From assembly GCF_900119165.1 (NCBI RefSeq), contig NZ_FPJG01000006.1:2728001-2792000 (forward strand): 64,000 bases of DNA, read 5' to 3'. Below the pieces are notes generated by a model. The model worked only from the letters and a program-made list of their open reading frames with translations. It had not been told where the DNA came from and made no database searches. The DNA comes from Amycolatopsis australiensis (GTDB lineage Bacteria; Actinomycetota; Actinomycetes; Mycobacteriales; Pseudonocardiaceae). Positions 1 through 22,166 of the stretch are shown piece after piece (the stretch's first letter is position 1; every line of letters starts with the position of its first letter). The position numbers and the translations under genes were made by a program.

Positions 1-1488
1 ACCGGCTACCCGGCCGAGATGATCGCGGGCGACCTCGACCTCGAAGCCGACCTCTCGATCGACTCGATCAAGCGCACCGAGATCGCCGGCACGCTGCTGG
101 CCCGGCTGGGCCTGCCCGCCGACGACCGCACCGACCAGCTCAGCCGCGACCGCACGGCGGACGCCCTGACCACCCACCTGGAGAGCTGGCTGAACCCCCG
201 GCCGGCGGCGAGCGCGCCCACGCGGTACCGGCTCGAGCGGATACCCGTGCCGCTGGGCCCCGACCCCGGGCGGCTGCACGGGAAAACCGTGGCGGCGCCG
301 GACGACGCCTTGCGGGCCGCGTTCGCCGCGGCGGGAGCGGAAGTCGTCACCGGGGACGCGGACATCACCGTGCTGCTCGCGCGTGACGTCACGGAGGTGT
401 TCACCCAGCTGAAGAAGGCGAAGGGCACTGTGCTCGTCGCGGCGGAACCGGGCACGCCCGGCCTCCGCGGCCTGGTCCGCTCGGCCGCGCTGGAACGCGA
501 CGGCGTCACCCGGCTCGTCGAGGCATCGCAGGACCTGGCCAAGGTCCTCGTCGACGAGGCACTGAGCGACGGCCCCGCGGTCGTCGGCCACGACGACGTC
601 GGCCGCTTCACGATCGAGCCGCGGCCGGTGGACCTCCCTTCGATCGCGTACTCCGGCGCCGGGCCGGGCGGCGGCGAGCTGGCCGCGCTCGGCCTCGGCC
701 CGGACTCCGTCGTCCTGCTCGTCGGCGGAGCCCGCGGGATCACCGCCCGCGCCGCGATCGCGTTCGCCGCCTCGGGCTGCCGGCTCGAACTCGCCGGGCG
801 GACCCCGTGGCCGGGCGAGCCGGACGACCTGCCGGCGGACCCCACGGCGATGCGCGCGGTGCTGGCCGGCCGCGGTGGTCCGGTGGCCGAGATCGAACGC
901 CGCGTGCGGACCGTGCTGGCCCAGCGCGAAATCGGCCGCACCCTCGACGAGATCCGCGCCGCGGGCGGGAGAGCGGACTACACGTCGCTCGACGTGCGCG
1001 ATCCGGACGCCGTGCGGCGCCTCGTCAAGAACCTGCCCAGCCGGCTCGACGGTGTCGTCTTCGCCGCCGGCGTCATCGACGACAAGCTCATGGCCGACAA
1101 GGACGAAGCGTCGTTCCGGTCGGTGTATGAGACCAAAGTGGACGGAGCGCGGATCCTGCTCGACGCGCTCGACGCCGAACCCGGGTTCGTCGCGTTCTTC
1201 GGCAGCATCGCCGCGGTGCTCGGCAACCGCGGCCAGACCGATTACGCCGCCGCGAACGACGCCTTGGAGGCGCTGGCCGCGGACCGGCCCGGCCGCGCCG
1301 TGACCGTCCACTGGGGACCGTGGGCCCCGGCGGACGACCATCCCGGCATGGTGTCGCCGGAACTGGCCCGCGAGTACGGCCGCCGCGACGTCGCCCTGCT
1401 CGACCCGGCCGAGGGCACCGCGGCGCTGCTGCGCGAACTCGCCTACGGCACGGACCGTGCGGTGCTCTACACGGCGTCACTGTGGTGA
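1..1488 (+). CDS. PUFA/Hgl-type polyketide synthase subunit, C-terminal ACP-ketoreductase part (5' end outside window)
   Basis: The reading frame is open from base 1, so the gene begins upstream. The first visible residues, TGYPAEM then DLEADLSIDSIKR, are the acyl-carrier-protein signature of PfaA/HglE-type synthases; the Ser of IDSIKR (visible residue 22) is the phosphopantetheine site. After a linker comes a ketoreductase domain: NADPH loop GGARGIT at about 242-248 and the catalytic set Ser402 (FFGSIAA), Tyr415 and Asn419 (QTDYAAAND), with the canonical spacing. The KR should reduce beta-keto intermediates on the ACP during iterative chain growth in the cytoplasm. The stop overlaps the next PKS gene (GTGA), so the two are translationally coupled. 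Family by motif: PUFA synthase/heterocyst-glycolipid synthase type rather than modular type I PKS. The product is not predictable from this fragment; KS and AT domains presumably lie to the left of the window. Confidence 0.85.
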   Translation, partial: TGYPAEMIAGDLDLEADLSIDSIKRTEIAGTLLARLGLPADDRTDQLSRDRTADALTTHLESWLNPRPAASAPTRYRLERIPVPLGPDPGRLHGKTVAAPDDALRAAFAAAGAEVVTGDADITVLLARDVTEVFTQLKKAKGTVLVAAEPGTPGLRGLVRSAALERDGVTRLVEASQDLAKVLVDEALSDGPAVVGHDDVGRFTIEPRPVDLPSIAYSGAGPGGGELAALGLGPDSVVLLVGGARGITARAAIAFAASGCRLELAGRTPWPGEPDDLPADPTAMRAVLAGRGGPVAEIERRVRTVLAQREIGRTLDEIRAAGGRADYTSLDVRDPDAVRRLVKNLPSRLDGVVFAAGVIDDKLMADKDEASFRSVYETKVDGARILLDALDAEPGFVAFFGSIAAVLGNRGQTDYAAANDALEALAADRPGRAVTVHWGPWAPADDHPGMVSPELAREYGRRDVALLDPAEGTAALLRELAYGTDRAVLYTASLW

Positions 1489-4400
1489 CTCAGGAACCGG
1501 TCGCGATCGTCGGCATGGGCGTGTTCCTGCCCGGTGCGTCCACAGTGGACCAGTATTGGCGGAACCTCGTGGCCGGGGTCGACGCCGTCACCGAGATCCC
1601 GCCGCACCGCCGTGACCCCGGGTTCCACGGCCGCGAGGGCACCGCGCCCGACCGTACCCACGGGATTCGCGGCGGCTTCGCGCCCGAACTGCTGGAGTTC
1701 GACCCGGTCGCGCACGGCCTCCCGCCGACGTCGCTGGAAGGCACCGAGCCGGATCAGCTGACGGCGCTGGCCGTCGCGGCCGCCGCGGTGGAGGACGCCG
1801 GTGGCCTCGGCCGGCTCGGCGACCCCGAGCGGGTCGGCGTCGTGCTCGGCCGCGGTGGCTACCTCTCGCCGGGCCTGCAAGGCTTCGACCAGCGCGTCCG
1901 GACCGTCCGGCAGATCATTCGCACGGTCGGCGAGCTGATGCCCTCGGCCGGACCGGACGTCCTCGACCGGCTGCGGACCGCGCTGCTGGCCCCGCTCGGC
2001 GAGTTCCGCCCGGAGACCGCCGCCGGGCTCGTCCCCAACCTGGCCGCCGCGCGCGTCGCGAACCGGCTCGACCTCGGCGGCCCCGCGTACACAGTGGACG
2101 CCGCCTGCGCGTCTTCGCTGGTCGCGGTCGACCAGGCGATCGGGGAGCTGACCCGGCGCCGCTGCGACGTCGTGCTGGCCGGCGGCGTCCACCAGACGCA
2201 CGACGACACGCTCTGGTCGCTGTTCACCCAGCTCGGCGCGTTGTCGCCGAGCCAGCGGATCAGCCCGCTCTCGCGCGAGGCCGACGGCATGCTCATCGGC
2301 GAGGGCACCGCGCTCGTCGTGCTCAAGCGGCTGGCCGACGCCCGCCGCGACGGCGACCGCGTGTACGCGGTGATCCGCGGCAGCGGGACGTCGAGTGACG
2401 GGCGGGGCGCGAGCCTGCTCAGCCCGTCCGTCGCCGGGCAGACCCGCGCGCTGCGGCGCGCCTGGACCGGCCTCGATCCCGCGGAGATCGGCCTGCTGGA
2501 GGCCCACGGCACGGCCACGCCGGCCGGTGACGCCGCCGAGCTGGCCACGGTCGCCGACGTCTTCGGCCAGGCCACCGGGCCGCGCGCGGTGATCGGGTCC
2601 GTCAAGTCGATGATCGGGCACACGCTGCCCACGGCCGGGGTCGCCGGGCTGGTCAAGGTCGCCCTGGCCCTGCACCACGAGGTGCTGCCGCCGACGCTCA
2701 ACTGCGCGGACCCGAACCCGCTGCTCGGCAAGACGCGGTTCCGGGTGCCGGCCGAGGCGGAGCCGTGGGGTGCGTTGCCGCGGGTGGCCGCGGTCAACGC
2801 GTTCGGCTTCGGCGGCGTCAATGCCCACGTCGTGCTGGAAGCCGGTGACCGCGCGCCGCGCCGGCGGGTGCGCGTCGACGAGCCGGAACGCGTGCTCCGG
2901 CTGGCCGCGAACTCGCCGGCCGAGCTGCTGGAGCGGCTGGACCGGCCAGGCGAGCCCGGGAACGGCCGGTGCCGGATCGGGATCGTCGGCCCGGACGAGC
3001 GCAAGCTGGCCACCGCCCGGCGGGTGCTCGCCAAGGTGGCCGCCGAAGGGCGGTCGTGGCACGGTGGCGGCGACGTGTGGTGCACGGCCGACCCGCTCCT
3101 GCCGGGCGGCAAGACGGTGTTCGTCCACCCGGGACTCGAGGCCGACGCCGAGCCGCGCATCGACGACGTGGCCGGGCACTTCGGATTCGACCGTCCACAG
3201 TGGTCGACGGCGAGCGTGCTCGACCGGGCGGCGAGCGTGTCGGCGGCCGGCCTCCTGCTCGACCGGGCCCTGCGCGGGCTCGGCATCCGGCCGGACGCGC
3301 TCGCCGGGCACAGCGTCGGCGAGTGGACGGCGATGCAGGCCGCCGGGATGTACCGCGCGGCACCGGACCTGCTGGACCGGTACTGGCCCGACGGCTTCGA
3401 ACTGCCCGAAGCGGACTACCTGGTGGTGGGCTGCCCGGCCGGGCGGGTGGCGGACCTGCTGCCCGGCGACCTGGTGATCTCGCACGAGAACGCGGCCCGC
3501 CAGACCATCGTCTGCGGCCGGCCCGGCGCGATCGCGGAATTCGCCGAAGCCTGCCGTGGGCAGGGGATCGTGGCGCGGACGCTGCCGTTCCGGTCCGGCT
3601 TCCACACCCCGCTGATGCGGCCGCACCTCGCGCCGTTCGCCCGCCTGGCCGCCGAGCTGGACCTGCGCGAACCCGAGGTCCCGGTGTGGTCGGCGACGAC
3701 TGCGCGGCCCTACCCGGCGTCGCCGGAGGCGATCCGCGAGCTGTACCTGGTGCACCTGATCCGCCCGGTGCGGTTCCGGGCGCTGACCGAGGCGCTGCAC
3801 GACGCGGGGTTCCGCGCGTTCGTGCAGGTCGGGGCCGGTCAGCTCGGCTCGTTCGTCAGTGACACGCTCGGCGACCGGCGGCACCTGGTCGTCGCCGCGG
3901 CCTCCGGCACCCGCTCCGGGCTCGCTCAGCTGCGTCGCGTCGCGACCGCGTTGTGGACCGAAGGCGGCGACCCGGACTTCGCCGCCTTGGAGCCACGGCG
4001 GATCCGGGTGAACACGGGCAGTTCCCTGCTGTCGCTGGGCGATTCCGCGCGCGGGCTGCTGGCCGACCGCGTGCTGCCCGAGCTGCCCGCCGGGGTGCCG
4101 GACGCGATCGTCGCCGAGTTCACGGCCCTGCTCACCGAGACGCGCCAGACCGCCGCGGACGTCGTCGCGGCGGCCGCGCAGCGGCGCGTGGAGTCCACTG
4201 TGGACGTCTCGCTGACGGCCATGCCGTACCTGCGTGACCACCGGTTCTTCCGGCAGCGCGAGGATTGGCCCGACGAGACGGACTTCCGCCCGGTGGTCCC
4301 GGCCACGACGCTGGTCGACCTCGCCTGCCGGGCCGCCGAACGGGCGTGGCCGGGCACGACGGCGGTCGCGGTGCGGGACGCGGTGTTCTCCCGGTGGCTG

Positions 4401-5321
4401 ATCGCCGCGCCGGCCCAGCGGGTGCCGCTGGTCATGAGCCGCGAAGGTGACCGCGTGAGCGTCGAAATCGGGCCGTACGCGCTGATGAACGTCGAGCTGG
4501 GGACGTTCGCGCCGGCACCGTCACCGGCCGGGGTGCCCGGTCCCGAGACGGCGCCGCCGCTGAGCGCGGAGGAGATCTACGCGCGGCGCGAGATGTTCCA
4601 CGGCCCGGCGTACCAGGGCCTGTCGCGGCTGACCGGCCTCGGCGAGCAGCACATCCGCGGCGAGCTGGTCGTGCCGTCCGCGCCCGGCGGGCTGCTCGAC
4701 AACGTCGGCCAGCTGCTCGGCTGCTGGCTGATGGCCACCCGGTCCGACGGGCTGCTCGCGTTCCCGCGGTCGATCGGCCGGCTCACCTGGCACGGGCCGG
4801 AACCGGCGCCGGGCACGCGGCTCGGCTGCCTGGTGCGGCTCCGGCTGCCGCGGCCGGACGTCCTGGAGATGGACGCCGAGCTGGTCCGGGACGGCCGGGT
4901 ACTGGCCACCGTCGAGGGCTGGCGGGACGTCCGGTTCCCCTGCGACCGCGCGGCTCACCGCGTGTACGCGTTCCCGGACCGGCACCTGCTGGCGGAACGG
5001 CGTGACGACGGCTCGGTCGCCGTCACCGACCGCTGGCCGACGGTCGCCGCGCGCGACATCTACGCCGGCATCTACCTCAGCGCCGCCGAACGCGCCGAGT
5101 TCGCCGCCGTCCCGCCGCGCCGGCAACGCGGCTGGCTGCTGACGCGCATCGCCGTGAAGGACGCCGTCCGGGCCCGGCTCGCCGAACCGGTCTTCCCGGC
5201 GGAGATCCGCGTCCACGACGACGGCACGGTGTCCGGCAGGCACCGGGAGCTGCCGCCTTTCGCCGTCACGGTCGAGCTGACCGGGGACACCGCCATCGCA
5301 CGACACAGGAGCACGCCATGA
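1485..5321 (+). CDS. Iterative type I polyketide synthase subunit: KS-AT-dehydratase with PPTase-like tail
   Basis: A 1278-residue synthase. The ketosynthase begins at PVAIVGMGVFLPG and has active Cys208 (DAACASS), EAHGTATPAGD and SVKSMIGH for the two His. The acyltransferase has nucleophile Ser610 in GHSVGEW and the partner His in FHTPLM. From about residue 905 follow hot-dog-fold dehydratase sequences (MPYLRDHRFF with candidate His919, then a second half around GGLLDNVGQLLG). The last ~110 residues (WLLTRIAVKDAVR, HDDGTVSGRH) resemble the phosphopantetheinyl-transferase-like tail of some actinobacterial PKSs, but the usual SISH is VTVELTG and the GVDIE segment is absent, so this part looks degenerate. 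I chose the GTG at 1485 because it makes a GTGA overlap with the upstream stop and the KS begins directly after it; GTG 1482 is equally close. It should work with the upstream ACP-KR protein and the discrete ACP that follows. Confidence 0.85.
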   Translation: MTQEPVAIVGMGVFLPGASTVDQYWRNLVAGVDAVTEIPPHRRDPGFHGREGTAPDRTHGIRGGFAPELLEFDPVAHGLPPTSLEGTEPDQLTALAVAAAAVEDAGGLGRLGDPERVGVVLGRGGYLSPGLQGFDQRVRTVRQIIRTVGELMPSAGPDVLDRLRTALLAPLGEFRPETAAGLVPNLAAARVANRLDLGGPAYTVDAACASSLVAVDQAIGELTRRRCDVVLAGGVHQTHDDTLWSLFTQLGALSPSQRISPLSREADGMLIGEGTALVVLKRLADARRDGDRVYAVIRGSGTSSDGRGASLLSPSVAGQTRALRRAWTGLDPAEIGLLEAHGTATPAGDAAELATVADVFGQATGPRAVIGSVKSMIGHTLPTAGVAGLVKVALALHHEVLPPTLNCADPNPLLGKTRFRVPAEAEPWGALPRVAAVNAFGFGGVNAHVVLEAGDRAPRRRVRVDEPERVLRLAANSPAELLERLDRPGEPGNGRCRIGIVGPDERKLATARRVLAKVAAEGRSWHGGGDVWCTADPLLPGGKTVFVHPGLEADAEPRIDDVAGHFGFDRPQWSTASVLDRAASVSAAGLLLDRALRGLGIRPDALAGHSVGEWTAMQAAGMYRAAPDLLDRYWPDGFELPEADYLVVGCPAGRVADLLPGDLVISHENAARQTIVCGRPGAIAEFAEACRGQGIVARTLPFRSGFHTPLMRPHLAPFARLAAELDLREPEVPVWSATTARPYPASPEAIRELYLVHLIRPVRFRALTEALHDAGFRAFVQVGAGQLGSFVSDTLGDRRHLVVAAASGTRSGLAQLRRVATALWTEGGDPDFAALEPRRIRVNTGSSLLSLGDSARGLLADRVLPELPAGVPDAIVAEFTALLTETRQTAADVVAAAAQRRVESTVDVSLTAMPYLRDHRFFRQREDWPDETDFRPVVPATTLVDLACRAAERAWPGTTAVAVRDAVFSRWLIAAPAQRVPLVMSREGDRVSVEIGPYALMNVELGTFAPAPSPAGVPGPETAPPLSAEEIYARREMFHGPAYQGLSRLTGLGEQHIRGELVVPSAPGGLLDNVGQLLGCWLMATRSDGLLAFPRSIGRLTWHGPEPAPGTRLGCLVRLRLPRPDVLEMDAELVRDGRVLATVEGWRDVRFPCDRAAHRVYAFPDRHLLAERRDDGSVAVTDRWPTVAARDIYAGIYLSAAERAEFAAVPPRRQRGWLLTRIAVKDAVRARLAEPVFPAEIRVHDDGTVSGRHRELPPFAVTVELTGDTAIARHRSTP

Positions 5322-5608
5322 CCACCGACCACGCGTCCGCCACCTTCGACGTCGTCGCCGAGCTGCTCACCGAGCTCGTCGGCGACGCCGAGGTCCTCGG
5401 GGTCGAGATCACCCCGGACACGACGTTCCACGAGGACCTGCAGCTGGAGAGCATCGACCTGGTGACCTTCGCGAGCATCCTCGCCGAGCACTTCGGCGCC
5501 GAGGTCAACCTCGCCGAGTACCTGGCGGAGAAGGACCTCGACGACGTCATCGGGCTGACCGTCGGCGACATCGCCCGGTTCGTGGGGGAGCGCACGTGCC
5601 CACGATGA
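5318..5608 (+). CDS. Discrete acyl carrier protein
   Basis: A 96-residue protein with the four-helix ACP pattern. LQLESIDLVTF holds the Ser (residue 45) that would carry 4'-phosphopantetheine. It begins with an ATGA overlap on the PKS stop and is itself overlapped by the hydrolase gene, so it belongs to the same operon. The motif LESIDLV differs from the IDSIKR motif of the integral ACP, so this is a separate carrier, possibly for a starter or for handing the finished chain to the hydrolase or another acceptor (inference). The many acidic residues are typical of ACPs. Confidence 0.88.
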   Translation: MTTDHASATFDVVAELLTELVGDAEVLGVEITPDTTFHEDLQLESIDLVTFASILAEHFGAEVNLAEYLAEKDLDDVIGLTVGDIARFVGERTCPR

Positions 5609-6372
5609 CCGTGAACGGGCTGCGCACCAACGTGCAGCTCGTGCCGGCCGGCGGCACCGAGACGGTGGTGTTCCTGCACGGCATGGGCACCGACAGCCTG
5701 GCGAGCTTCTACCTGACGCTGGCGCCGCCGGTCGCGGCGGCCGGCATCGACGTGATCAGCTACGACCTGCGCGGGCACGGCAAGACCGAACGTCCGGTGC
5801 GCGGGTACACGCTCGGGGACTTCGTCGCCGACCTCGACGACCTGCTGCGGCAGCTCGGCGTCGACCGGCCGGTGCACCTGGTGGGCAACAGCTTCGGCGG
5901 GACGCTGGCCTACAGCTACGCCGTGGCCCATCCTTCGCGGGTCCGCAGCATCGTGTGCATCGAGTCCGAGCCCGCGACCGAGGTGTGGGCGGAGAAGATG
6001 AGCCGGATCCTCGCGCACACCGTGCGGTTCCTGCAGGTCGAGGAGAGCTTCGACTGGATCGAGGCGAACTTCAGCGCCCACCACCGGCGGCTGGCGCGGC
6101 TGGCGGCCGAGCGGATCATGTCGACGAAGATGGCCGAGGAGGTCCCGCTCGGGCCGTTGCTCACCTGGGCGCAGGTGGCGGCGATCGGCTGTCCCGTGCT
6201 GTCCATCCTGGGCAGCCACGGCTACCAGGCGGACGACCTCGAGGCGTTGACGTCGGTGCTGCCGCACGGCGAGCTGCACGTGTTCGAGGGGCAGGGCCAT
6301 TCGGTGCTGGTGGAGCAGCACCGGGAGGTGCGTGAGCTGGTGCTCCGCTGGATCGAACGGCACGCGGCGTGA
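5596..6372 (+). CDS. Alpha/beta hydrolase (possible chain-releasing thioesterase)
   Basis: A 258-residue alpha/beta-hydrolase. HGMG (residues 28-31) is the oxyanion region, nucleophile Ser99 sits in GNSFGG, and the C-terminal His lies in GQGHSVLVEQ. GTG at 5596 is preferred because GGGGGAG lies five bases upstream; the in-frame ATG at 5605 would give an ATGA overlap with the ACP stop but has a poorly placed ribosome site. The position after KS-AT-DH and ACP suggests hydrolytic release or editing of the polyketide chain (inference). No membrane segment or signal peptide is visible, so it is cytoplasmic. A lipase-like or haloperoxidase-like esterase is the alternative; the sequence alone does not decide. 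Confidence 0.8.
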   Translation: MPTMTVNGLRTNVQLVPAGGTETVVFLHGMGTDSLASFYLTLAPPVAAAGIDVISYDLRGHGKTERPVRGYTLGDFVADLDDLLRQLGVDRPVHLVGNSFGGTLAYSYAVAHPSRVRSIVCIESEPATEVWAEKMSRILAHTVRFLQVEESFDWIEANFSAHHRRLARLAAERIMSTKMAEEVPLGPLLTWAQVAAIGCPVLSILGSHGYQADDLEALTSVLPHGELHVFEGQGHSVLVEQHREVRELVLRWIERHAA

Positions 6373-7475
6373 GGTTCCTGCTGGTCGTGCCGCCGCTGGC
6401 CGGGCACGTGGCGCCGTTGCGCGGGGTGGCCGACGCGCTGGCTTCGCGGGGCCATTCCGTGGCGTGGTGCGGCCCGGAGCCGGAACTGTCCGCTTTGGTC
6501 TCCGGCCGGGTGTGCGCGGCCGGGGACTCGGCTCCCTTCGCGCTGTCGTTGCGGCCGCCGGGACTGCGCGGGTTCGCGGCCCTGAAGTACCTGTGGGAGT
6601 CGTACCTGGTGCCGCTGGCGGACGCGATGGTGCCGGGGGTGTCGGCGGCGGTCACGGCGTTTTCGCCCGACGTGGTCGTCGCGGACCAGCAGGCGATGGC
6701 GGGCGCGCTGGTGGCGGCGCGGTGCGGGCTGCCGTGGGCGACGTCGGCGTCGACGTCCACCGAGCTGGCCGACCCGCTGGGTTCGCTGCCGAAGATCGCG
6801 TCCTGGGTTTCCGATCTGCAAGCCGGGCTGCGCGCCCGCCACGGCGTGCTGCTCGGCGACCTGCGGTTCTCGCCGCACCTGGTGCTGGCGTTCACGACGC
6901 GGGCGCTGGCCGGGCCCTGCCGCCTGGCGGTGCCGGTGTCCTACGTCGGTCCGGTGCTGCCGGCCGCATCGGCCGAGTGGTCCGGTTCGGACGGACGGCC
7001 GCTGGTGGTGGTCACGCTCGGGACGTCGAACGACGCCGCGGGGTCGCGGTTCCTGGCCGAGAGCGTGGACGCGCTGGCCGGGATGCCGTCGGTGCAGGGG
7101 CTGGTCGTGGACCCGTCCGGGCAGCTGGTCAGCGAGCGCGTCGGGCTGGCGCGGCGGATCCCGCAGGTGGCGGTGTTCGCCCGGGCGTCGGTGGTGGTCT
7201 GCCACGGCGGGCACAACACGGTGTGCGAAGCACTGGCGGCCGGCGTGCCGCTGGTGGTGGCCCCGATCCGCGACGACCAGTCGATGCTGGCCCAGCAGGT
7301 GACCGCGGCCTCGGCGGGGATCCGGCTCCGGTTCGACCGCGCGAAGGCGGCGGACATCCGCGCGGCGATCGAGTCGGCGGAGCAGCACCGCGCGGGGGCG
7401 GTCCGGATTCGCGAGTCGTTCGAAGCCGCGGGTGGCGCGGAAGAAGCGGCGACGCGGCTGGAGTCGTTGGCCTAG
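6369..7475 (+). CDS. GT-B glycosyltransferase, GT1/MGT-like
   Basis: A 368-residue protein opening with VPPLAGHVAPLRGVADAL, the acceptor-side Rossmann start of macrolide/UGT-type transferases (GxGHxxP-like). The C-terminal half holds the sugar-nucleotide signature CHGGHNTVCEALAAGVP followed by PIRDDQ. The GTG start overlaps the hydrolase stop (GTGA). It should transfer a sugar from an activated donor onto the polyketide or lipid product, making a glycolipid-like compound (inference from operon position). The C-terminus EEAATRLESLA followed by TAG lies inside a 47-bp tandem repeat that carries two more copies of the gene end just downstream. Donor and acceptor cannot be named from sequence. 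Confidence 0.85.
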   Translation: MRFLLVVPPLAGHVAPLRGVADALASRGHSVAWCGPEPELSALVSGRVCAAGDSAPFALSLRPPGLRGFAALKYLWESYLVPLADAMVPGVSAAVTAFSPDVVVADQQAMAGALVAARCGLPWATSASTSTELADPLGSLPKIASWVSDLQAGLRARHGVLLGDLRFSPHLVLAFTTRALAGPCRLAVPVSYVGPVLPAASAEWSGSDGRPLVVVTLGTSNDAAGSRFLAESVDALAGMPSVQGLVVDPSGQLVSERVGLARRIPQVAVFARASVVVCHGGHNTVCEALAAGVPLVVAPIRDDQSMLAQQVTAASAGIRLRFDRAKAADIRAAIESAEQHRAGAVRIRESFEAAGGAEEAATRLESLA

Positions 7476-7576
7476 GCGCGGTTGCGGAAGAAGCGGCGGC
7501 GCGCCTGGAGTCGTTGGCCTAGGCGCGGTTGCGGAAGAAGCGGCGACCCGCCTGGAGTCGCTGCCTAGGCGCGGTT
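7437..7576. repeat. Three tandem 47-bp copies of the glycosyltransferase gene end
   Basis: Copies at 7437-7483, 7484-7530 and 7531-7576 begin GCGGAAGAAGCGGCG and end CTAGGCGCGGTT. Copy 3 is one base shorter. Copy 1 contains the last codons and TAG of the glycosyltransferase; copy 3 contains the last codons and TAG of the convergent ABC permease, because CCTAGG supplies both stops. The period is not a multiple of three. The array fills the whole junction between the two convergent genes. Confidence 0.9.
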
Positions 7577-9327: not shown

Positions 9328-9401
9328 GGCCGCTCCTTTCCCTGCCCGGGAAAACGTAGCCGGACCCGGCGGTGCCGGGCAAGACGATCGCCGCCATCCA
9401 C

Positions 9402-9450
9402 CGTGCGCGTGACAATTTCCGGGACGCCGGATGGCATGCGCGTGACAAGG
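9402..9450 (+). promoter_or_regulatory. GTGACA module A in the divergent exporter/mce promoter region
   Basis: Two direct repeats TGCGCGTGACAA at 9404-9415 and 9437-9448 lie 33 bp apart (start to start), with CGGATGG between them. The same arrangement, with identical spacing, recurs at 24935-24974. The module sits about 75-125 bp upstream of the ABC ATPase and 130-175 bp upstream of the first gene of the mce operon. It could be a regulator binding site; the binding protein is unknown, with the nearby PucR-type regulators as candidates. Confidence 0.5.
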
Positions 9451-9578
9451 GCTGACCTGCGTGAGGCTTGTCGGCGACGGTGTTCCCACGGGTATGACAA
9501 AGAATCGCCATCGGGTTGTCGAGGCGGATTTCCACAGGTAACTTTCCCGGAAATTCCCCATTTCCGAGGTGACGAGCC

Positions 9579-15720: not shown

Positions 15721-16712
15721 AACCGTTCCGCAGCCGCAACCCGATCGCCGTCGGCACGGTGACCGCCCTGCTCATGGGCCTGGTGGGCGGTGCCACGTTC
15801 TTCGCCGGCGACCTGCCGCTCGTCGGCGGCGGCACGACGTACCGGGCGGAGTTCCGCGAGGCCGCCGGGCTGCGGCCGAACGACGAGGTCCGCGTGGCCG
15901 GGGTGAAGGTCGGCGAGGTCACCGACGTCCGGCTGGCCGGCGACCACGTCGAGGTGCTGTTCCGGGTCAAGGACACCTGGGTGGGCAACCGCACGACGGC
16001 GGCCATCAAGATCAAGACGCTGCTCGGCCAGAAGAACCTGGTGCTCGACCCGGTGGGCAACGGCGAGCTCGACCCGGACCAGCCGATCCCCGCCGAGCGC
16101 ACGAGCTCGCCCTACGACGTCACCGCGGTGTTCAACGACCTGGCGAGCACCGTCGGCGCGATCGACACCGGCCGGCTCGCGCAGGCGTTCCGCACCCTGT
16201 CGGACACCCTCGGCGCGTCGGCCCCCAGTGACGTCAAGACCGCGTTCAACGGGATCGCCGCCCTGTCGCAAACGCTCGCTTCGCGGGACGACGAGCTGGT
16301 GAAGCTGTTCCAGAACACCAGCCAGGTGTCGAAAACCCTCGGCGAGCGCTCGGACCAGATCCAGGCGCTCATCCGCGACGGCAACACGCTGCTCACCGAG
16401 CTGAACGCGCGGAAGGACGCGATCGCGCAGCTGTTCACCGGCATCAAGAACCTGTCGGTCCAGCTGCGCGGGCTGGTCGCGGAAAACCAGAAGACGCTCG
16501 GCCCGGCGCTCGACCAGCTCGACCGCGTCGCGACCGTGCTGCAGCAGAACCAGGGGAAGCTGGCGGACAGCCTGCGCCTGGCCGGCCCGTTCTACCGGCT
16601 GCTCGGCAACGCCGTCGGCAACGGGCGGTGGATCGACACCTACATCTGCGGGCTCGTCCCCACCGGCACCACGCCGGGCAGCTGCCTGCCACCGAAGAAC
16701 GGGGGACGCTGA
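15717..16712 (+). CDS. mceC: Mce family protein MceC
   Basis: A 331-residue subunit with an N-terminal anchor (PIAVGTVTALLMGLVGGATFFAG) and the Mce domain (YRAEFREAAGLRPNDEVRVAGVKVGEVTDV, TLLGQKNLVLDPVG). The following helical half contains SSPYDVTAVFNDLASTVGAID and ends in DTYICGLVPTG, common for MceC. The ATG start is in an ATGA overlap and the stop shares one base with mceD (TGATG). Role as for the other Mce subunits: a protomer of the periplasmic lipid conduit. Confidence 0.92.
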   Translation: MKPFRSRNPIAVGTVTALLMGLVGGATFFAGDLPLVGGGTTYRAEFREAAGLRPNDEVRVAGVKVGEVTDVRLAGDHVEVLFRVKDTWVGNRTTAAIKIKTLLGQKNLVLDPVGNGELDPDQPIPAERTSSPYDVTAVFNDLASTVGAIDTGRLAQAFRTLSDTLGASAPSDVKTAFNGIAALSQTLASRDDELVKLFQNTSQVSKTLGERSDQIQALIRDGNTLLTELNARKDAIAQLFTGIKNLSVQLRGLVAENQKTLGPALDQLDRVATVLQQNQGKLADSLRLAGPFYRLLGNAVGNGRWIDTYICGLVPTGTTPGSCLPPKNGGR

Positions 16713-17710
16713 TGGCCCACCACCTCGTCGATCTCGGAGCCCGGGCGAAACGCCGGGCCCGGCTGCGGGCGCTCGCGCTCGGCGTCGTGCTCGCGCTGCT
16801 GGTCACGGCGGTGTGGCCGCTGGCCACCGCGCCTGGCGAGCGCACGCTGACCGCGTACTTCACCGCCGCGGTCGGGATCTACCCGAACTCGGACGTGCGC
16901 GTCCTCGGCGTCGCCGTCGGCTCGGTGTCCGAAGTGGAACCGGACGGCACGGACGTCAGGGTGACCATGACACTGCGGCCCGACGTGCGGCTGCCGGCGG
17001 ACGCCGGCGCCGTCGTCATCACGCCGAGCCTGGTCGCCGACCGGTACGTGCAGCTCACGCCGGTCTACCGCGGCGGACCGGCGCTGCCCGACGGCGCGTC
17101 CATCCCACGGGAGCGCACGGCGACCCCGGTCGAGGTCGACGACCTGCTGCACAGCCTCAACCAGCTGATGTCCGCGCTCGGCCCCCAGGGCGCCAACAAG
17201 GACGGCGCGGTCAGCGACGTGCTGACGAAATCCGCCGACTACCTCAACGGGACCGGCCAGACCATCGGCGAGGCGATCAAGAACCTCGGCGAGTTCGCCC
17301 GCGCGGCGAGCGACTCGAAGGACGACCTGTTCAGCTCCGTCGACAACATCAGCAAGTTCACCGCGATGCTCGCGGCCAACGACGGGCAGGTGAAGCAGGC
17401 CATCGCGCAGATCGCCTCGCTCAGCAAGGTCCTCGCCGACCAGCGGGACCAGTTCTCCGGCGCGCTCACCGAGCTGACCCAGGCGCTGAGCGTGGTCCAA
17501 GGGTTCATCAAGGACAACCGCGGCAAGGTCCAGTCCGATGTGGACAAGCTGGCCGACGTCACGAAGGTGCTGGTGGACCAGAAGAACTCGCTGTCCGAAG
17601 CGCTCAGCGCGGCCCCCAACGCCCTGACCAACCTGCTCGGTGCCTACGACCGGGCGAACGGGACCATCGACGGCCGCGGCAACCTCCTCGAGTTCGCGGA
17701 GCCGAAATGA
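16712..17710 (+). CDS. mceD: Mce family protein MceD
   Basis: A 332-residue subunit. The N-terminus is basic (RAKRRARLRALALG) and leads into the anchor VVLALLVTAVWPLAT; the Mce domain reads LTAYFTAAVGIYPNSDVRVLGVAVGSVSEV and PSLVADRYVQLTPV. The long C-terminal region has coiled-coil-like heptads (LNQLMSALGP to LADVTKVLVDQKNSL). ATG 16712 is chosen because it makes the TGATG junction with mceC and starts just before the basic N-terminus. It completes the usual order before the lipoprotein mceE. Confidence 0.92.
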   Translation: MAHHLVDLGARAKRRARLRALALGVVLALLVTAVWPLATAPGERTLTAYFTAAVGIYPNSDVRVLGVAVGSVSEVEPDGTDVRVTMTLRPDVRLPADAGAVVITPSLVADRYVQLTPVYRGGPALPDGASIPRERTATPVEVDDLLHSLNQLMSALGPQGANKDGAVSDVLTKSADYLNGTGQTIGEAIKNLGEFARAASDSKDDLFSSVDNISKFTAMLAANDGQVKQAIAQIASLSKVLADQRDQFSGALTELTQALSVVQGFIKDNRGKVQSDVDKLADVTKVLVDQKNSLSEALSAAPNALTNLLGAYDRANGTIDGRGNLLEFAEPK

Positions 17711-18678
17711 AGTCCCTGGTCAAGCTGGCCGCGGTGGTCACCCTCGCGCTCGTCACCACCGGCTGCGGACGCGGGGTGAGCGTCTACGACATCCCGCTGC
17801 CCGGCGGCGCCGCGCTCGGCGACCACCCGATCCACGTCACGGCGAGCTTCACCAACGTGCTCGACCTGGTGCCGCAGTCCGGCGTCAAGGTCGACGACGT
17901 CCCGGTCGGCCAGGTCGTGAAGGTCGAGCTGGCGCCGGACGGGCGCAGCGCACGCGTCGACCTGCTGGTCAACGGCGACGTCGACCTGCCGGGCAACGCC
18001 GTCGCGCGGCTGCGGCAGGCCAGCATCCTCGGCGAGAAGTTCGTCGAGCTGGCTCCGCCGGACGACGCGACGCCGTCGGGCCGGCTCCTCGACGGCGCGG
18101 ACATCCCGCTCGACCGCTCGACACTGACCCCGGAGATCGAGGAGGTGTTCGGCGCCTTGTCGCTGCTGCTCAACGGCGGCGGGGTGGCGCAGGTGCAGAA
18201 CATCAGCCACCAGCTCAACGACGCTCTCGGCGGCAAGGAGACGGCGGCCCGCAGCCTGCTGTCCAGTTTGGACGAATTCGTCCGCGGGCTCGACGAGCAC
18301 CGGAGCGAGATCACGCGCGCGATCGAGAGCGTCAACAAGCTCGCGGCCACGCTCAACGCGCACACCGGGCAGATCACCACGACCCTGAACGGCCTCACAC
18401 CCGGCATCGGCGTGCTCAACCAGCAGCGGGAGGCGCTGGTCGGGATGCTCAAGTCGCTCGACGGCCTGACCTCGGTCGCCGTCGACACCGTCAACCGCAG
18501 CAAGGACGACCTCGTCGCCGACCTGCGCGCGCTGGAGCCGCTGCTGCGTCAGCTGGCCGACTCGGGGGACAAGCTGCCGAAGGCGATGGAGATGATCTTC
18601 ACCTTCCCGTTCCCGGACGCCGCGCTCGACGCCATCCGCGGCGACTACCTCAACGGGTTCCTCAAGGTGGGGCACTGA
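17707..18678 (+). CDS. mceE: Mce family lipoprotein MceE
   Basis: A 323-residue lipoprotein: the signal MKSLVKLAAVVTLALVTTGC has a lipobox (TTGC) with Cys20, so the protein is lipid-anchored on the outside of the membrane. MceE is the lipoprotein member in most actinobacterial mce operons (known for the family). The Mce domain follows (HVTASFTNVLDLVPQSGVKVDDVPVGQV, LGEKFVELAPP) and a helical region up to the hydrophobic end FTFPFPDAALDAIRGDYLN. Overlaps: ATGA with mceD and TGATG with mceF. Confidence 0.93.
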   Translation: MKSLVKLAAVVTLALVTTGCGRGVSVYDIPLPGGAALGDHPIHVTASFTNVLDLVPQSGVKVDDVPVGQVVKVELAPDGRSARVDLLVNGDVDLPGNAVARLRQASILGEKFVELAPPDDATPSGRLLDGADIPLDRSTLTPEIEEVFGALSLLLNGGGVAQVQNISHQLNDALGGKETAARSLLSSLDEFVRGLDEHRSEITRAIESVNKLAATLNAHTGQITTTLNGLTPGIGVLNQQREALVGMLKSLDGLTSVAVDTVNRSKDDLVADLRALEPLLRQLADSGDKLPKAMEMIFTFPFPDAALDAIRGDYLNGFLKVGH

Positions 18679-19784
18679 TGCTGACCCGGTTCGTGCGCGT
18701 GCAGGTGACGATCTTCGTGGTCATCGCCGTCGTCGGCGTCGCCTACGTCGGGGCCACCTACGCCGGCCTCGACAAGGTGTTCTTCGACCGCGGCTACACC
18801 GTCACGGCCCGGTTCCCGGCCGGCGGCGGCATCTTCACCAACGCGGAGGTCACCTACCGCGGCGTGCCGATCGGCCGCGTCGGCGAGCTGCGGCTCACGC
18901 CCGCCGGCATGGAGGCCGACCTCGAGATCGACGCCGGCACCGCGCCGGTCCCGGCGGACACCGAGGCCGTCGTCGCCGACCGGTCGGCCGTCGGCGAGCA
19001 GTACGTCGACCTGCGGCCGCGCACCGACGGCGGGCCGAAGCTGCACGACGGGTCGGTGATCACGGAGGCCGACACGAAGATCCCGCTCCCGGTCGACGTC
19101 GTCTTGTCGACAGTGGACTCGTTCGCGGCGTCGGTACCGAAGCCGGCGCTGCGCACGGTCGTCGACGAGCTGTACAACGCGACGTCGGGGGCCGGCCCGG
19201 CGCTGGACCAGCTGATCGGCCGCGGCATCGAGTTCGTGCAGGCGGCGAGCGCGCACGTGGCGCCGCTGACCCGGTTCGTCACCGACGCGCACACCGTGCT
19301 CGACACGCAGGTCCAGCAGGCCGACGCGATCCGGGGGTTCGGCGCCAACGCGAAGCTGCTCGCCTCGACCCTGAAGCAGGCCGACGGTGACCTGCGGACG
19401 CTGATCCCGGCCGTGCCCGCCGCCGCCAACGAGGTCGGCGCGCTGATCCGCGACTCCGGGCCGCAGCTGGGCGTGCTGCTGGCCAACCTGCTGACCACCG
19501 CCGACGTCCTCGAAGCCCGCCAGGACGGCCTCCGCCAGCTGCTGATCACCGCGCCGCAGGCGGTCGCCGCGGGCAGCGCGGTCGTGCGCCCGGACGGCGC
19601 CCACTTCGGCCTGTCCCTGACTTTCTTCGACCCACCGCCGTGCACCACCGGGTACACGACGCCGTACCACGATGGCCTCGACACCTCGGTCCGCCCGCTG
19701 AACACGGCCGCGCGCTGCGCGCTGCCGAAGGGCGACCCGACGAACGTGCGGGGCTCGCAGAACGCACCGGGAGGACGGCCGTGA
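18678..19784 (+). CDS. mceF: Mce family protein MceF
   Basis: A 368-residue subunit. Anchor helix VQVTIFVVIAVVGVAYVGATYAGL is followed by the Mce domain YTVTARFPAGGGIFTNAEVTYRGVPIGRVGEL and VADRSAVGEQYVDLRP, the characteristic MceF sequence. The C-terminus has PPPCTTGYTTPYH and an Ala/Gly-rich tail. ATG 18678 lies in TGATG with mceE; the stop overlaps the next gene through GTGA. It is the sixth protomer; all six are full length, so the transporter should be functional if an MceG ATPase is supplied elsewhere in the genome. Confidence 0.93.
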   Translation: MLTRFVRVQVTIFVVIAVVGVAYVGATYAGLDKVFFDRGYTVTARFPAGGGIFTNAEVTYRGVPIGRVGELRLTPAGMEADLEIDAGTAPVPADTEAVVADRSAVGEQYVDLRPRTDGGPKLHDGSVITEADTKIPLPVDVVLSTVDSFAASVPKPALRTVVDELYNATSGAGPALDQLIGRGIEFVQAASAHVAPLTRFVTDAHTVLDTQVQQADAIRGFGANAKLLASTLKQADGDLRTLIPAVPAAANEVGALIRDSGPQLGVLLANLLTTADVLEARQDGLRQLLITAPQAVAAGSAVVRPDGAHFGLSLTFFDPPPCTTGYTTPYHDGLDTSVRPLNTAARCALPKGDPTNVRGSQNAPGGRP

Positions 19785-20287
19785 AGATCTTCGCGTGGCT
19801 CGCCCCGGCGACCGCGGTGCTCGCCACCGCGGCGGCCGGCTGGTCGGGTTTCACCTGGTGGCAGGCGGCGCACGACGACGGCGTCGCCCGCGCGGCCGTG
19901 CGGGAGGAGGCCCTGCGGGCGGGCCGGACGGCGGTGGCCGGGCTGACCACGTTGGACTACCGGCAGGCGGCGCCGGGCTACCAGCACTGGCTGGACCTCT
20001 CCGGCGGCCCGCTGCACGACGAGCTGGCGGCCGACCGGCAGGGCAGCCTCGACCGGATCGCCCAGGCCAGGACCGTCACCACGGGCAAGGTGACCGACGC
20101 CGCGGTGACCGAAGTGGACACCGGCGCGGGCACGGCGAAGCTGATCGCCTCGGTCGAGCTGGTCGTCGCCCCGGCGGACGGCGACGCCGTGACCAAGCGC
20201 AACCGGTTCCAGGCCGACCTGACCCGCGGGCCGGACGGCTGGCGCGTGACCGGGCTGGGCCAGGTGCCCGCCGGGGAGGCACCGTGA
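19781..20287 (+). CDS. Mce-associated membrane protein 1
   Basis: A 168-residue protein with one N-terminal transmembrane helix (WLAPATAVLATAAAGWSGFTWW) and an external domain (LDYRQAAPGYQHWLDLSGGPLHDEL to GWRVTGLGQVPAG) of the type found after mceF in actinomycete operons (Mam/Mas proteins, a SnoaL/NTF2-like fold by family knowledge). The GTG start overlaps mceF and its stop overlaps the next gene. Such proteins are thought to stabilise Mce complexes; nothing in the sequence indicates catalysis. Confidence 0.82.
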   Translation: MKIFAWLAPATAVLATAAAGWSGFTWWQAAHDDGVARAAVREEALRAGRTAVAGLTTLDYRQAAPGYQHWLDLSGGPLHDELAADRQGSLDRIAQARTVTTGKVTDAAVTEVDTGAGTAKLIASVELVVAPADGDAVTKRNRFQADLTRGPDGWRVTGLGQVPAGEAP

Positions 20288-20862
20288 CCGTTCCGACGAA
20301 GAAACGCGTGGTCAAGGTGGCCGGACGGCACCACGAACCGGCACCGGAAGCTCCTGCCGCCGAGCCGAAGCGGCGCCCGCGGTGGGCGTTCGCCGTGGTC
20401 GCGGTCGTGATGGCCGGGCTCGCCGTCTGGTTCACGCTCGAGGCGCGCAGCACGAACGAAGTCGTCGCGCACAACACCGCGTTGGCCGACGTCTCCGCCA
20501 CCGCGGACGCCGGCAAGCAGGTCAGCGCCGCGCTGGGCACGCTGTTCTCGTACCGCTACGACGACCCGGCGAAGAACGAGCGGGCGGCCAAGGAGCTGCT
20601 GAGCGGGCCCGCGCTCGCGCAGTACGACCAGCTCTTCGGCCAGGTCCGCAAGCTCGCGGCCGACCAGAAGCTGGTCGTGACGTCGACGGCCGTGGCCTCC
20701 GGCGTCAAGCTGCTCGACGGCGACCGCGCGGCGCTGCTGGTGTTCCTCGACCAGACCGGCACGCGGGGCGACGGGCAGCGCAGCACCGGCGCGGCCCAGC
20801 TGAGCGTCACGGCCGAGCGCGTCGACGGCAAGTGGCGCGTCACCGGCATGGCCGCCGCCTGA
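20284..20862 (+). CDS. Mce-associated membrane protein 2
   Basis: A 192-residue protein. The cytoplasmic N-terminus is basic and Pro/Ala-rich (KKRVVKVAGRHHEPAPEAPAAEPKRRPR), followed by a single membrane helix (WAFAVVAVVMAGLAVWFTLEA) and an external domain ending RVDGKWRVTGMAAA, parallel to the GWRVTGLG end of the preceding protein. The two are probably paralogues forming a pair, as at many mce loci. The GTG start is in a GTGA overlap. The ketoreductase gene begins 17 bp after its stop. Confidence 0.82.
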   Translation: MTVPTKKRVVKVAGRHHEPAPEAPAAEPKRRPRWAFAVVAVVMAGLAVWFTLEARSTNEVVAHNTALADVSATADAGKQVSAALGTLFSYRYDDPAKNERAAKELLSGPALAQYDQLFGQVRKLAADQKLVVTSTAVASGVKLLDGDRAALLVFLDQTGTRGDGQRSTGAAQLSVTAERVDGKWRVTGMAAA

Positions 20863-20879
20863 CCATGCGCGAGGAACCG

Positions 20880-22166
20880 ATGAGCCCGGGACCGGCGTAC
20901 CGGTCGTTCGGGACGTCCTGGATCGAGGCGCCGCTCCCGCCGGTCCCGCCGGGCGAGCCCGCGTCGTGGCTGCTGCTGACCGACGAGCACCCGGTGGCGC
21001 TCGGCCGCGCCGTCGCGCTCGCCTTGGCACTCGCCGAAGCCGGGGACGAGGCCCTCTCCCTGCCGCAGGACGACCTCGGCGAGCTGGCGGCCTTCGTGGC
21101 CGAGCGGCGGGTGCGCGGCGTCGTGTTCCTCACCGGTGCGCCGCACGCCTACCACGACCCGGAAGACGCGCAGGACCTGCTGCTCTCGGTGCTGTCCGTC
21201 GTCGCCCGGCTGGGTCCCGGCGTCCGGCTCCACCTGGTCACGCAGTCGAGCGGCGAGCCGGGGCTGGTGTTCCTGCGCGGCCTGGTCCGGGCGCTCGCCT
21301 TCGACCGGCCGGGCCTGCGGGCGAGCCTGGTCGACTGCGACGCGCGGTCCGAAGTGGAGGTTCTGGTCCGCGAGCTGCGGTCGGACGCGCCGGACGACGA
21401 GGTGCGCTGGCGCCACGACGTCCGGTACGCCGCGCGCCTGACCCGCGTGCCGCTCGCCGGCGGCGTCCCGGCCGGGCCGGGCGCGTACGCGATCACCGGC
21501 GGCTTCGGCGTGCTCGGACAGGCCACCGCGCGCCGGCTGGCGGACGGCGGCGCGACCCGGATCGTCCTTTGTGGACGACACGGGGGCCCGGTGGCATTGC
21601 CCGGTGTGGACGTCGTGGCCGTCACCGGGGACATCGCCGAACCCGGTGTCGCGGAACGGCTCGTCGCCGCGGCGACCGCGGACGGCCTGCGGCTGCGGGG
21701 AATCGTGCACACGCCCGGCTCCCGGTGGCGGGCCAAGGTGCTCGGCGCCTGCCGGCTGCACGAAGCGACGGCCGACACGCCACCGGACTGGTGGCTGCTG
21801 TATTCGTCGTCGGCGGCGCTGTTCGGCGCGCCGGGACGGACGGCCGCGGCGACGGCGGACGCGTGGCTGGACGCGTTCGCCGCCTGGCGGCGGTCCCGCG
21901 GGCTCCCGGCGACGACGGTGAACTGGGGTCCGTGGACGGCGGACCCGCTGCTGGACCCGATGACGCTCACCGAAGGCCTCGAAGCGCTGCCCGCCGTGCT
22001 CGCGTCGGGCCTGCCATCGGTGGGTATCGCACGGCTGGACACCGCCCGCGTCGCGGCACGGTACCCGGAACTGACCCGCCGCCCGTTCTTCTCGGCCCTG
22101 CTCGGCGAGCCGGAGCCACCGGACTCCGACCCGGCGATCCCGCGCCGCCCCGTCAACCACGCGTGA
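20880..22166 (+). CDS. Stand-alone PKS-type ketoreductase at the end of the mce operon
   Basis: A 428-residue reductase built like the structural plus catalytic KR halves of type I PKS. The N-terminal half (WLLLTDEHPVALGRAVALALA) resembles a KR structural subdomain. The catalytic half has the NADPH loop YAITGGFGVLGQATARRLADGG and the segment LYSSSAALFGAPGRTAAATADAWLDA. The normal Tyr of S-x12-Y-x3-N is not evident (FGAPGRTAAATADAW), so catalysis could be altered. VNWGPW late in the protein is a typical PKS-KR motif. ATG 20880 is preferred since GAGG lies five bases upstream; ATG 20865 is possible. It lies 17 bp after the second Mce-associated gene, so it is very likely co-transcribed with mce. 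It links the transporter to polyketide chemistry; it may also act on the transported lipid. Confidence 0.78.
   Translation: MSPGPAYRSFGTSWIEAPLPPVPPGEPASWLLLTDEHPVALGRAVALALALAEAGDEALSLPQDDLGELAAFVAERRVRGVVFLTGAPHAYHDPEDAQDLLLSVLSVVARLGPGVRLHLVTQSSGEPGLVFLRGLVRALAFDRPGLRASLVDCDARSEVEVLVRELRSDAPDDEVRWRHDVRYAARLTRVPLAGGVPAGPGAYAITGGFGVLGQATARRLADGGATRIVLCGRHGGPVALPGVDVVAVTGDIAEPGVAERLVAAATADGLRLRGIVHTPGSRWRAKVLGACRLHEATADTPPDWWLLYSSSAALFGAPGRTAAATADAWLDAFAAWRRSRGLPATTVNWGPWTADPLLDPMTLTEGLEALPAVLASGLPSVGIARLDTARVAARYPELTRRPFFSALLGEPEPPDSDPAIPRRPVNHA

Follow-up and report, generated by a model that had tools for sequence, protein, structure and literature searches.

Does an MCE transporter handle a lipid that is made by the genes next to it? 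Mycobacterial MCE transporters have mainly been studied as importers of host lipids, and we know of no established cargo or direction for most members of the family. The question is raised by a locus of Amycolatopsis australiensis, in which a PUFA/Hgl-type polyketide synthase (PKS) cassette, a DrrAB-like exporter and an mce operon lie side by side in a stretch of 64,000 nucleotides (hereafter the window, i.e., the whole stretch of DNA analyzed). A conserved synthase beside one mce operon makes the question of MCE cargo and direction testable. For the orphan PUFA/Hgl-type cassette, which occurs widely among actinobacteria, the linkage also offers a clue to the product. The Amycolatopsis cassette and the neighboring MCE transporter likely handle the same lipid; if so, a poorly understood transporter family would gain an endogenous cargo.

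Composition of the Locus

The features of the locus are listed in Table 1. The ORF map and Pfam bear out the original prediction that the cassette genes overlap: those of PKS1, PKS2, the acyl carrier protein (ACP), the hydrolase and the glycosyltransferase (GT) do so end to end. The PKS domains are also as predicted, except that the ACP-KR protein is the C-terminal part of PKS1 cut by the window. Whole PKS1, which starts ~4.26 kb upstream of the window, has 1914 aa with the Pfam order NMO-type ER-KS-AT-ACP-KR and retains the KS Cys-His-His, AT Ser, ACP Ser and KR Tyr motifs. KS, AT, ACP and KR are found within this one protein, with the ACP (Ser motif present) just below its cut-off of 20.8 bits at 20.7, and the PfaD-type (NMO) ER (PF03060, 57.6 bits, residues 181–494) is fused rather than separate. 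PKS2 carries PF14765/PF21089 and one KS, and Pfam detected in it neither the KS-CLF nor the FabA-type DH pair of PUFA synthases. The top NCBIfam match of both proteins is TIGR02813 (PfaA), whose cut-off of 1010.1 bits is reached by neither PKS1 (809.7 bits) nor PKS2 (427 bits), and the matches listed in a PDB sequence search with the two are all generic PKSs or FASs. The cassette hydrolase, in which G-N-S-F-G and one His are invariant across 11 aligned sequences, likely releases the acyl chain.

The exporter genes predicted to follow the cassette are there but on the opposite strand, convergent with the GT gene and divergent from the mce operon. The DrrA-like ATPase scores 301.0 bits with TIGR01188 (cut-off 312.45), and the drrA/drrB-type model TIGR01247 gives 82.4 bits (cut-off 223.05). 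The pair lies between cassette and mce operon in the window and in the genus relatives read, and its divergent orientation to the S1-mce unit is kept in eight of them.

The mce operon was predicted to be complete. Indeed, the actinobacterial MCE features, two MlaE/YrbE permeases and six MlaD-domain Mce proteins, are present, but S1 and S2, whose genes open the operon just before yrbE1, had gone unlisted, and an Mkl/MceG-type ABC ATPase is absent from the operon. The one close Mkl/MceG match of the genome (85% identity; G000:C6:400120) is located beside another mce operon, and the next best has 41% identity. The Mas-position genes gave no Pfam match. The N-terminus of the fifth Mce protein, read by eye in the translation, ends in TTGC, which was compared with what we take to be the lipoprotein signal motif.

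S1 consists of a DUF6801 domain, a Thr-Pro repeat and an S2-like C-terminal domain, and the S2 gene overlaps yrbE1 by 4 bp. Both proteins are predicted to be secreted, S1 by its N-terminal hydrophobic segment. The structure model of S2 is all-beta (pLDDT 83), with beta-barrels as the best structural matches in Foldseek. The first of these, a weak one (12% identity, E 4.3e-3), is the lipid-binding DynF of dynemicin biosynthesis, which the model resembles in its beta-barrel fold, whereas S2 is predicted to be secreted and is encoded in an mce operon. The S2 strands mostly have one hydrophobic face, a pattern that does not distinguish inside from outside, and as modeled, S2 could sit in a membrane as a barrel instead of serving as a carrier.

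Table 1. Features of the locus, with positions in the window and the basis of each assignment.
Feature	Position	Strand	Basis
PKS1, C-terminal part (ACP-KR inside the window)	1–1488	+	Pfam and motif check
PKS2, KS-AT-DH (PS-DH type)	1482–5321	+	Pfam; KS and AT active-site motifs intact
Free acyl carrier protein	5318–5608	+	Pfam
Alpha/beta-hydrolase of the cassette	5596–6372	+	Pfam and alignment
MGT-like glycosyltransferase	6369–7475	+	Profile match below TIGR01426 cut-off
DrrB-like ABC-2 permease	7565–8398	-	Pfam, NCBIfam
DrrA-like ABC ATPase	8395–9327	-	Pfam, NCBIfam
Intergenic region between divergent drrAB and S1-mce units	9328–9578	.	ORF map
S1, DUF6801	9579–11156	+	Pfam, N-terminal hydrophobic segment
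S2	11188–11907	+	Structure model, Foldseek
YrbE1 permease (MlaE)	11904–12698	+	Pfam
YrbE2 permease (MlaE)	12699–13514	+	Pfam
Six MCE proteins, each MlaD + Mce4_CUP1	13511–19784	+	Pfam
MCE gene bounds	13511–14707, 14704–15720, 15717–16712, 16712–17710, 17707–18678, 18678–19784	+	Pfam
Two Mas-position genes	19781–20287, 20284–20862	+	Named by position and conservation
Orphan PKS-type KR	20865 or 20880 (start)–22166	+	Pfam, alignment
Two PucR-type regulators	22186–24786	-	Profile and neighborhood
Second alpha/beta-hydrolase, start codon not fixed	24979–26259	-	Profile and neighborhood

Linkage of the Cassette and the mce Operon

Co-occurrence in other genomes, the check proposed with the original prediction, is borne out in the genus. 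An orthologue of the cassette hydrolase was found in 49 of 80 Amycolatopsis genomes, and an orthologue of YrbE1 in all of these 49; in 43 of the 44 judgeable genomes, the two genes are on one strand, 4.3–18.2 kb apart, with mce downstream. The Fisher p for this co-occurrence, 1.5e-18, ignores phylogeny and is no evidence of independence. All 80 genomes were searched for the hydrolase, YrbE1 and the terminal KR, while whole cassettes were read in selected loci; orthologue thresholds (at least 74% identity for the hydrolase and at least 83% for YrbE1) follow the gap in the match lists as judged by eye, and the YrbE1 of G227, split over two frames, was added by reading its locus. The linked genomes are diverged, with hydrolase identity down to 74%. 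Gene order is kept over dozens of species, by which chance adjacency in a single genome is ruled out. Three Amycolatopsis genomes (G223, G218 and G231) have the mce operon without a cassette orthologue.

A second, separate cassette lineage in other Pseudonocardiaceae is also linked to mce, with different intervening genes. Twenty mce operons were read outside the genus, taken from the best Mce1 matches and not as a random draw. The cassette is near mce in 7 of the 17 judgeable ones (G012, G190, G100, G019, G003, G045 and G152); in the other 10 (G027, G009, G136, G179, G084, G132, G106, G014, G010 and G030), none was found in the 10–33 kb read upstream of mce, a more distant cassette being possible, and in the three not judged (G008, G078 and G114) a contig edge lies upstream of mce. 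For relatives of the cassette, the best 80 of 525 stretches were kept, and the 35 genomes behind 36 of these loci were searched. In 61 of these best 80 loci, the hydrolase has no YrbE1 match closer than 10 kb, in some only through a contig end. Streptomyces, Frankia and Kutzneria have the five-gene cassette without mce, and an ABC ATPase match often follows it; such mce-free cassettes are widespread. Separate occurrence of the PKS block and the mce operon, named in advance as evidence against a common system, is thus not seen as the usual state within Amycolatopsis, while outside the genus half of this picture is found. Because the cassette is common without mce, it does not need the mce operon; because the mce operon is found without the cassette, its cargo must be a different or wider one. 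Both points, like the trees, count against a single pathway.

The trees show the same mixture. The cassette tree has 62 rows, 49 of which come from the best 80 (of 525) loci; 26 rows are labeled as linked, 30 as not linked, mostly meaning no mce within 10 kb, and 6 are unlabeled, and both linked groups also contain unlinked members. PKS-linked operons are likewise mixed with unlinked ones in the mce tree (39 rows; three short G000 loci were dropped for coverage), where the “pks” label changes 12 times against a shuffled mean of 13.2, with 159 of 500 shuffles as low; in this labeling, G152 is unlabeled though linked on later reading, and G114 is unlinked though its contig begins 5.8 kb upstream.

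We give a probability of roughly 0.5 to the reading that cassette, DrrAB and mce form one pathway for the synthesis, export and reuptake of a long-chain lipid, probably a glycosylated one. Rather unlikely, in our view, is that the cassette makes a specialized metabolite (a polyene or a glycosylated polyketide) secreted via DrrAB, and that the mce operon is a neighbor with its own nutrient-uptake job, close by co-inheritance only. The cassettes without mce in the three genera above, often followed by an ABC ATPase match, and the mce operons that outlive cassette loss fit such a division, as do the polyenes of up to C22 made by a related iterative PKS, that of Rhodococcus erythropolis PR4 (PMC11563203). 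Against it stand the 43 linked genomes among the 44 judgeable ones of the genus, at hydrolase identities down to 74%, and the second cassette lineage, which is linked too across other intervening genes.

The Terminal Ketoreductase and a Vanished FAAL-PKS Pair

The transporter was further predicted to carry a PKS ketoreductase (KR); as a working part, this KR is not supported. At the place of the YAxAN-type motif, which holds the catalytic Tyr of KRs, the orphan KR has GRTAAATADAW, and all 28 KR domains of loci L012–L039 have the Tyr there. A stretch ahead of the catalytic Lys is deleted in the alignment, and the Tyr is missing from all 11 copies read in the clade of the window. A copy at 70% identity or more was found in 22 of the 80 Amycolatopsis genomes and none in the other 58. 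A working tailoring enzyme is ruled out by the lost Tyr, the deletion before the Lys and the patchy presence. By simple NG86 counts, its dN/dS is 0.30–0.50, compared with 0.20–0.24 for PKS2 (three orthologues), 0.10–0.25 for Mce1/Mce3/Mce6 and 0.15–0.29 for Mas2; since the KR value is not simply neutral, recent decay or a residual non-catalytic role is possible.

Judged by its sequence and that of its relatives, the orphan KR is an inactive remnant of a pair, FAAL and Pks13-like synthase, once located 3′ of the mce operon. Such a pair follows the mce operon in relatives and decays to the lone KR in the window. For example, the mce operon of G226 (L203) is followed by a FAAL and then by a protein with an N-terminal ACP, KS, AT and a C-terminal TE by Pfam, with a second ACP by motif only; an Esterase-family (PF00756) protein is encoded next. 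This arrangement is like Pks13-FadD32 (FAAL) of mycolate synthesis in the FAAL, the ACP-KS-AT...TE protein and the following esterase, whereas G226 has an extra DH and KR, the latter with His for Tyr, and the pair is inactive or lost in the clade of the window. There, the FAAL is gone or without a P-loop, and the downstream KS, where present, is without its Cys. The KR Tyr position of mce-adjacent FAAL-PKS pairs is occupied by His (G226, G203), Asp (G200, G208), Phe (G179) or Gln (G136), and by Tyr only in G045; the loss of the Tyr may be older than the decay of the pair. A FAAL match is found in 81 of 200 family genomes, and FAAL-PKS pairs are mostly not mce-linked; outside Amycolatopsis, a FAAL within ~21 kb of this mce type was seen by eye, among the Mce1 matches listed, in G045, G179 and G136.

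FAALs activate fatty acids for PKSs (PMC11837247; PMC8460268), and the FAAL and PKS after the mce operon of several relatives would suit a transporter that imports an exogenous lipid, to be used by the cassette, or formerly by the FAAL-PKS pair, as a starter or acyl donor. This is improbable, as the clade of the window keeps cassette and mce operon in spite of its lost or P-loop-less FAAL and Cys-less KS.

A Possible Lipid Cycle

Under the preferred reading of one pathway, PKS1 and PKS2 would elongate malonyl units iteratively on the ACP of PKS1 and the free ACP, with reduction of the chain by the KR, DH and ER of the two proteins. The hydrolase would free the chain, the GT would add a sugar and DrrAB would export the product. 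Beyond the membrane, S1 and S2 would then bind the lipid and hand it to the YrbE-Mce complex, presumably powered by the single Mkl/MceG ATPase encoded beside the other mce operon, and the terminal KR, as a leftover of the FAAL and Pks13-like pair, would have no catalytic part. The product, its glycosylation and the direction of transport are what we infer here; with mycobacterial Mce1 and Mce4 as the model, import is preferred over export. To our knowledge, the directionality of MCE systems is generally not settled, and this, together with the predicted secreted S1 and S2 at the head of the operon, would also suit an mce system that exports or places a lipid outward while DrrAB moves something else. 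Such an arrangement is improbable, since the locus already has two genes for an exporter of its own and mycobacterial Mce1 is modeled as an importer (PMC9882608).

Tentatively, the single pathway can be extended to a self-contained lipid cycle, in which an MCE system would be dedicated to the lipid made, glycosylated and exported by the same locus, with S1 and S2 as beta-barrel carriers leading to the Mce tube, in a genus without mycolic acids and by descent from a larger locus with a Pks13-like condensing synthase. If true, this would be an MCE system with its cargo defined by the neighboring synthase. It counts against the one-pathway reading that Amycolatopsis solani is without mycolic acids (PMC11004387), so that an outer membrane, as a barrier for the lipid, may be absent.

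Known Systems and Flanking Genes

The PUFA synthases PfaABCD share with the cassette a KS-AT-ACP-KR protein, a PfaD-like ER and TIGR02813 as top match, whereas here the ER is fused ahead of the PfaA-like protein, and KS-AT-DH, with a single KS and a PS-DH, makes up the second protein. The heterocyst glycolipid (hglE) type combines a long-chain synthase with a glycosyltransferase; the cassette is alike in both and differs by the attached MCE operon. hglE-KS clusters are reported for Amycolatopsis (PMC11004387; PMC12282000), by which sameness with the cassette of the window is not implied. Shulse and Allen (2011; PMC3098273) place “secondary lipid” synthases of types L, M and Q among Actinobacteria, with types lacking assigned products in organisms including Actinosynnema mirum and Frankia, and “mce” is absent from the main text of that paper. 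Mce1 and Mce4 share with the mce operon two YrbE, six Mce, two Mas-position genes and a single Mkl-type ATPase encoded outside the operon, whereas in the window a lipid synthase cassette and DrrAB lie next to the operon, S1 and S2 head it, and the genus includes a species shown to have no mycolic acids. “Mce” in PMC4453227 stands for methylmalonyl-CoA epimerase, and the main text of PMC13291983 mentions neither mce nor Amycolatopsis. The original prediction knew of no described system of this composition, and no description of the cassette-mce pairing was found in open-licence literature either.

On the far side of the orphan KR, many of the loci read also have PucR-type genes next to this mce operon, and in many of them the second alpha/beta-hydrolase gene is at the same place.

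Gene Organization of the Locus

Reading frames and overlaps, followed by Pfam and NCBIfam, confirm the gene composition claimed for this part, G000:C6:2728001-2792000, of the 9.3-Mb genome: a five-gene PUFA/heterocyst-glycolipid-type synthase cassette, a DrrAB-like ABC exporter and an mce operon. Two genes for predicted secreted proteins, S1 (DUF6801) and S2, head this operon. From PKS1 through PKS2, ACP and hydrolase to the glycosyltransferase (GT), every gene overlaps its successor, and from S2 through the second Mas gene, neighbors touch or overlap. Intact motifs are present for KS, AT, ACP, and KR in PKS1 and for KS and AT in PKS2.

Genes of the synthase, exporter and mce modules in the window
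Gene	Position	Strand	Remark
PKS1	start ~4.26 kb before window; ends 1488		NMO-type ER-KS-AT-ACP-KR, 1914 aa (Pfam)
PKS2	1482-5321
ACP	5318-5608
Hydrolase	5596-6372
GT	6369-7475
DrrB- and DrrA-like genes	7565-9327	minus
S1	9579-11156
S2	11188-11907
YrbE1, YrbE2, six Mce proteins, two Mas-position genes	after S2, to 20862
KR	start 20865 or 20880, end 22166

At 22186-28838, a hydrolase gene lies amid four genes for PucR-type regulators (HTH_30); such regulators are found beside this mce operon in many loci read, other genera included. Another DUF6801 protein is encoded at 32833-34077, about 21 kb from S1.

According to an excerpt of Casali and Riley (PMC1810536), mce operons have Mkl genes upstream in Amycolatopsis, among others. 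The window's mce operon has no Mkl gene; the genome has four YrbE pairs in all and one close Mkl, adjoining an mce operon at 0.40 Mb. In mycobacteria, MceG is thought to be common to several MCE systems (PMC9882608, in excerpt).

Linkage Within Amycolatopsis

The co-occurrence check attached to the original prediction shows that the cassette-mce linkage is real. In a first family sample of 200 genomes, nine of the 11 from the genus, the window's included, have PKS2 and Mce1 orthologs at one locus, and the remaining two lack both. All eight relatives read share the order PKS1-PKS2-ACP-hydrolase-GT, reversed DrrAB, (S1)-S2-YrbE-Mce, with S1 not found in two of them (genomes G124 and G054, the contig of the latter stopping inside Mce1). 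Among 80 genus genomes, a hydrolase ortholog, counted at an identity of at least 74%, is present in 49, all of which also have a YrbE1 ortholog. The two are linked in 43/49, on the same strand with mce downstream, the listed starts of the two matches being 4256-18216 bp apart; they are on separate contigs in five, and hydrolase and mce lie 1.69 Mb apart in one (G226). Neither a cassette ortholog nor the mce operon is found in 28 of the 80, and three (G223, G218, and G231) have the operon without a cassette ortholog. Cassette remnants adjoin mce in two of these, GT in G223 (stretches L208/L209) and PKS2 plus GT in G218 (L210), and the synthase was likely lost there recently.

Modules shift position yet remain close by. 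Other genes stand between cassette and mce in G012, from outside the genus; in G226 the cassette is gone from the locus while DrrAB and S1 still adjoin mce; and DrrAB is downstream of mce in G261 and, outside the genus, in G190, G003, and G045. Two further observations concern single stretches: YrbE1 is broken over two frames at ~7125-7900 of L211 (G227), a frameshift or an assembly error, and L009:9092-11788, upstream of PKS1, encodes a large TPR-like protein whose C-terminus, by eye, is CHAT-protease-like.

Cassettes Beyond the Genus

The hydrolase alignment A1 served as query in a named search, of whose 525 loci the best 80 were kept. In these best 80, ACP and hydrolase matches are adjacent in all, followed by GT in 79, and 19 have mce genes no more than 10 kb away: 16 from Amycolatopsis and one each from Haloechinothrix halophila, Actinokineospora xionganensis, and A. 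fastidiosa. On visual inspection of contigs and positions, a YrbE1 search of 35 of the genomes behind these loci gave no clear extra linkage among the unlinked ones, with Longimycelium (L186) a possible exception. In Herbihabitans (L141, G008), the cassette is at one contig end and an mce operon at another.

In a tree of 62 cassettes labeled linked, unlinked, or unknown, the window's cassette groups with Amycolatopsis and the linked cassettes form two groups. The first, Amycolatopsis plus G012, has 19 linked, 4 unlinked, and 2 unknown members; the second, with a PKS2 without KS, has 7, 1, and 1, respectively. Unlinked cassettes of Frankia, Kutzneria, and others stand between them. The linked label requires 6 changes on the tree, compared with 20.1 on average after shuffling. 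Outside the genus, 20 mce operons were read: seven have a cassette near; three, G114 among them, stop at a contig edge, and in 10 of the 17 judgeable operons the cassette is absent from the 10-33 kb read upstream. Given these tree groups and operon counts, the link is either ancient or recurrent, without being obligatory.

The window's genome has a paralogous PKS1-PKS2-ACP-hydrolase-GT cassette at ~5426-18099 of L092 (G000:C6:5514001-5534000), unlinked to any mce operon and on a different branch of the tree.

Possible Function

Judged from its domains, the locus encodes an iterative reducing PKS pair, an exporter, a lipid transporter, and probable release and glycosylation enzymes. A related Rhodococcus synthase makes polyenes up to C22 (excerpt of PMC11563203), and one species of Amycolatopsis, devoid of mycolic acids, contains an unidentified glycolipid (excerpt of PMC11004387); this glycolipid is conceivably the product. 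We infer that cassette, exporter, and mce transporter handle one common lipid, and the make-and-move idea of the original prediction is reasonable as a hypothesis. Recapture of the lipid by the mce complex seems likelier than outward transport, given the separate exporter and the view of mycobacterial Mce systems as importers (PMC9882608, in excerpt). No description of a cassette-mce pairing was found in the open-licence papers searched.

Origin of the Terminal Ketoreductase Gene

The PKS-type KR at the end of the mce operon had been taken for a functional part of the system, and this was wrong: it is a leftover of a decayed FAAL-PKS pair. Of 80 Amycolatopsis genomes, only 22 have a KR copy at an identity of at least 70%; six keratiniphila-type relatives with the downstream side read (G157, G085, G015, G183, G107, and G124) showed none. 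Its ancestor is the FAAL-synthase pair located 3′ of the Mas genes in relatives. In G226, FAAL is accompanied there by a synthase with ACP, KS, AT, DH, KR, and TE (Pfam), with a second ACP by motif only and His in place of the KR Tyr. G045, G179, and G136 also have FAAL and a related synthase, 9-15 kb past the Mas genes.

Decay of the pair is visible in the window's clade. G215 (L197/L229) and G235 (L199) have FAAL with long PKS frames of 1813 and 1885 codons, and G225 has FAAL with a 947-codon frame containing KR; G224 (L196) and G234 (L198) have open PKS frames of 1650 and 1759 codons, with no FAAL found. In all five, KS is without its Cys and KR without its Tyr, and the P-loop is missing from FAAL wherever FAAL is present (G215, G235, and G225). 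Other clade members retain FAAL and KR fragments, and the window and G264 KR alone. The dN/dS of KR is 0.30-0.50; KR is therefore weakly constrained or recently dead.

Despite loss of the KS Cys and KR Tyr, the PKS frames of G215, G235, G224, and G234 stay open over 1650-1885 codons. Immediately behind the Pks13-like synthase of G226, L203:3993-4952 (minus strand) encodes a protein of the Esterase family (PF00756) whose start is signal-like. This family includes mycolyltransferases, and the protein comes from a genus of which one species has been shown to have no mycolic acids. In keratiniphila-type G015, G124, G157, G183, and G085, FAAL lies about 29-32 kb past Mce1 on the opposite strand.
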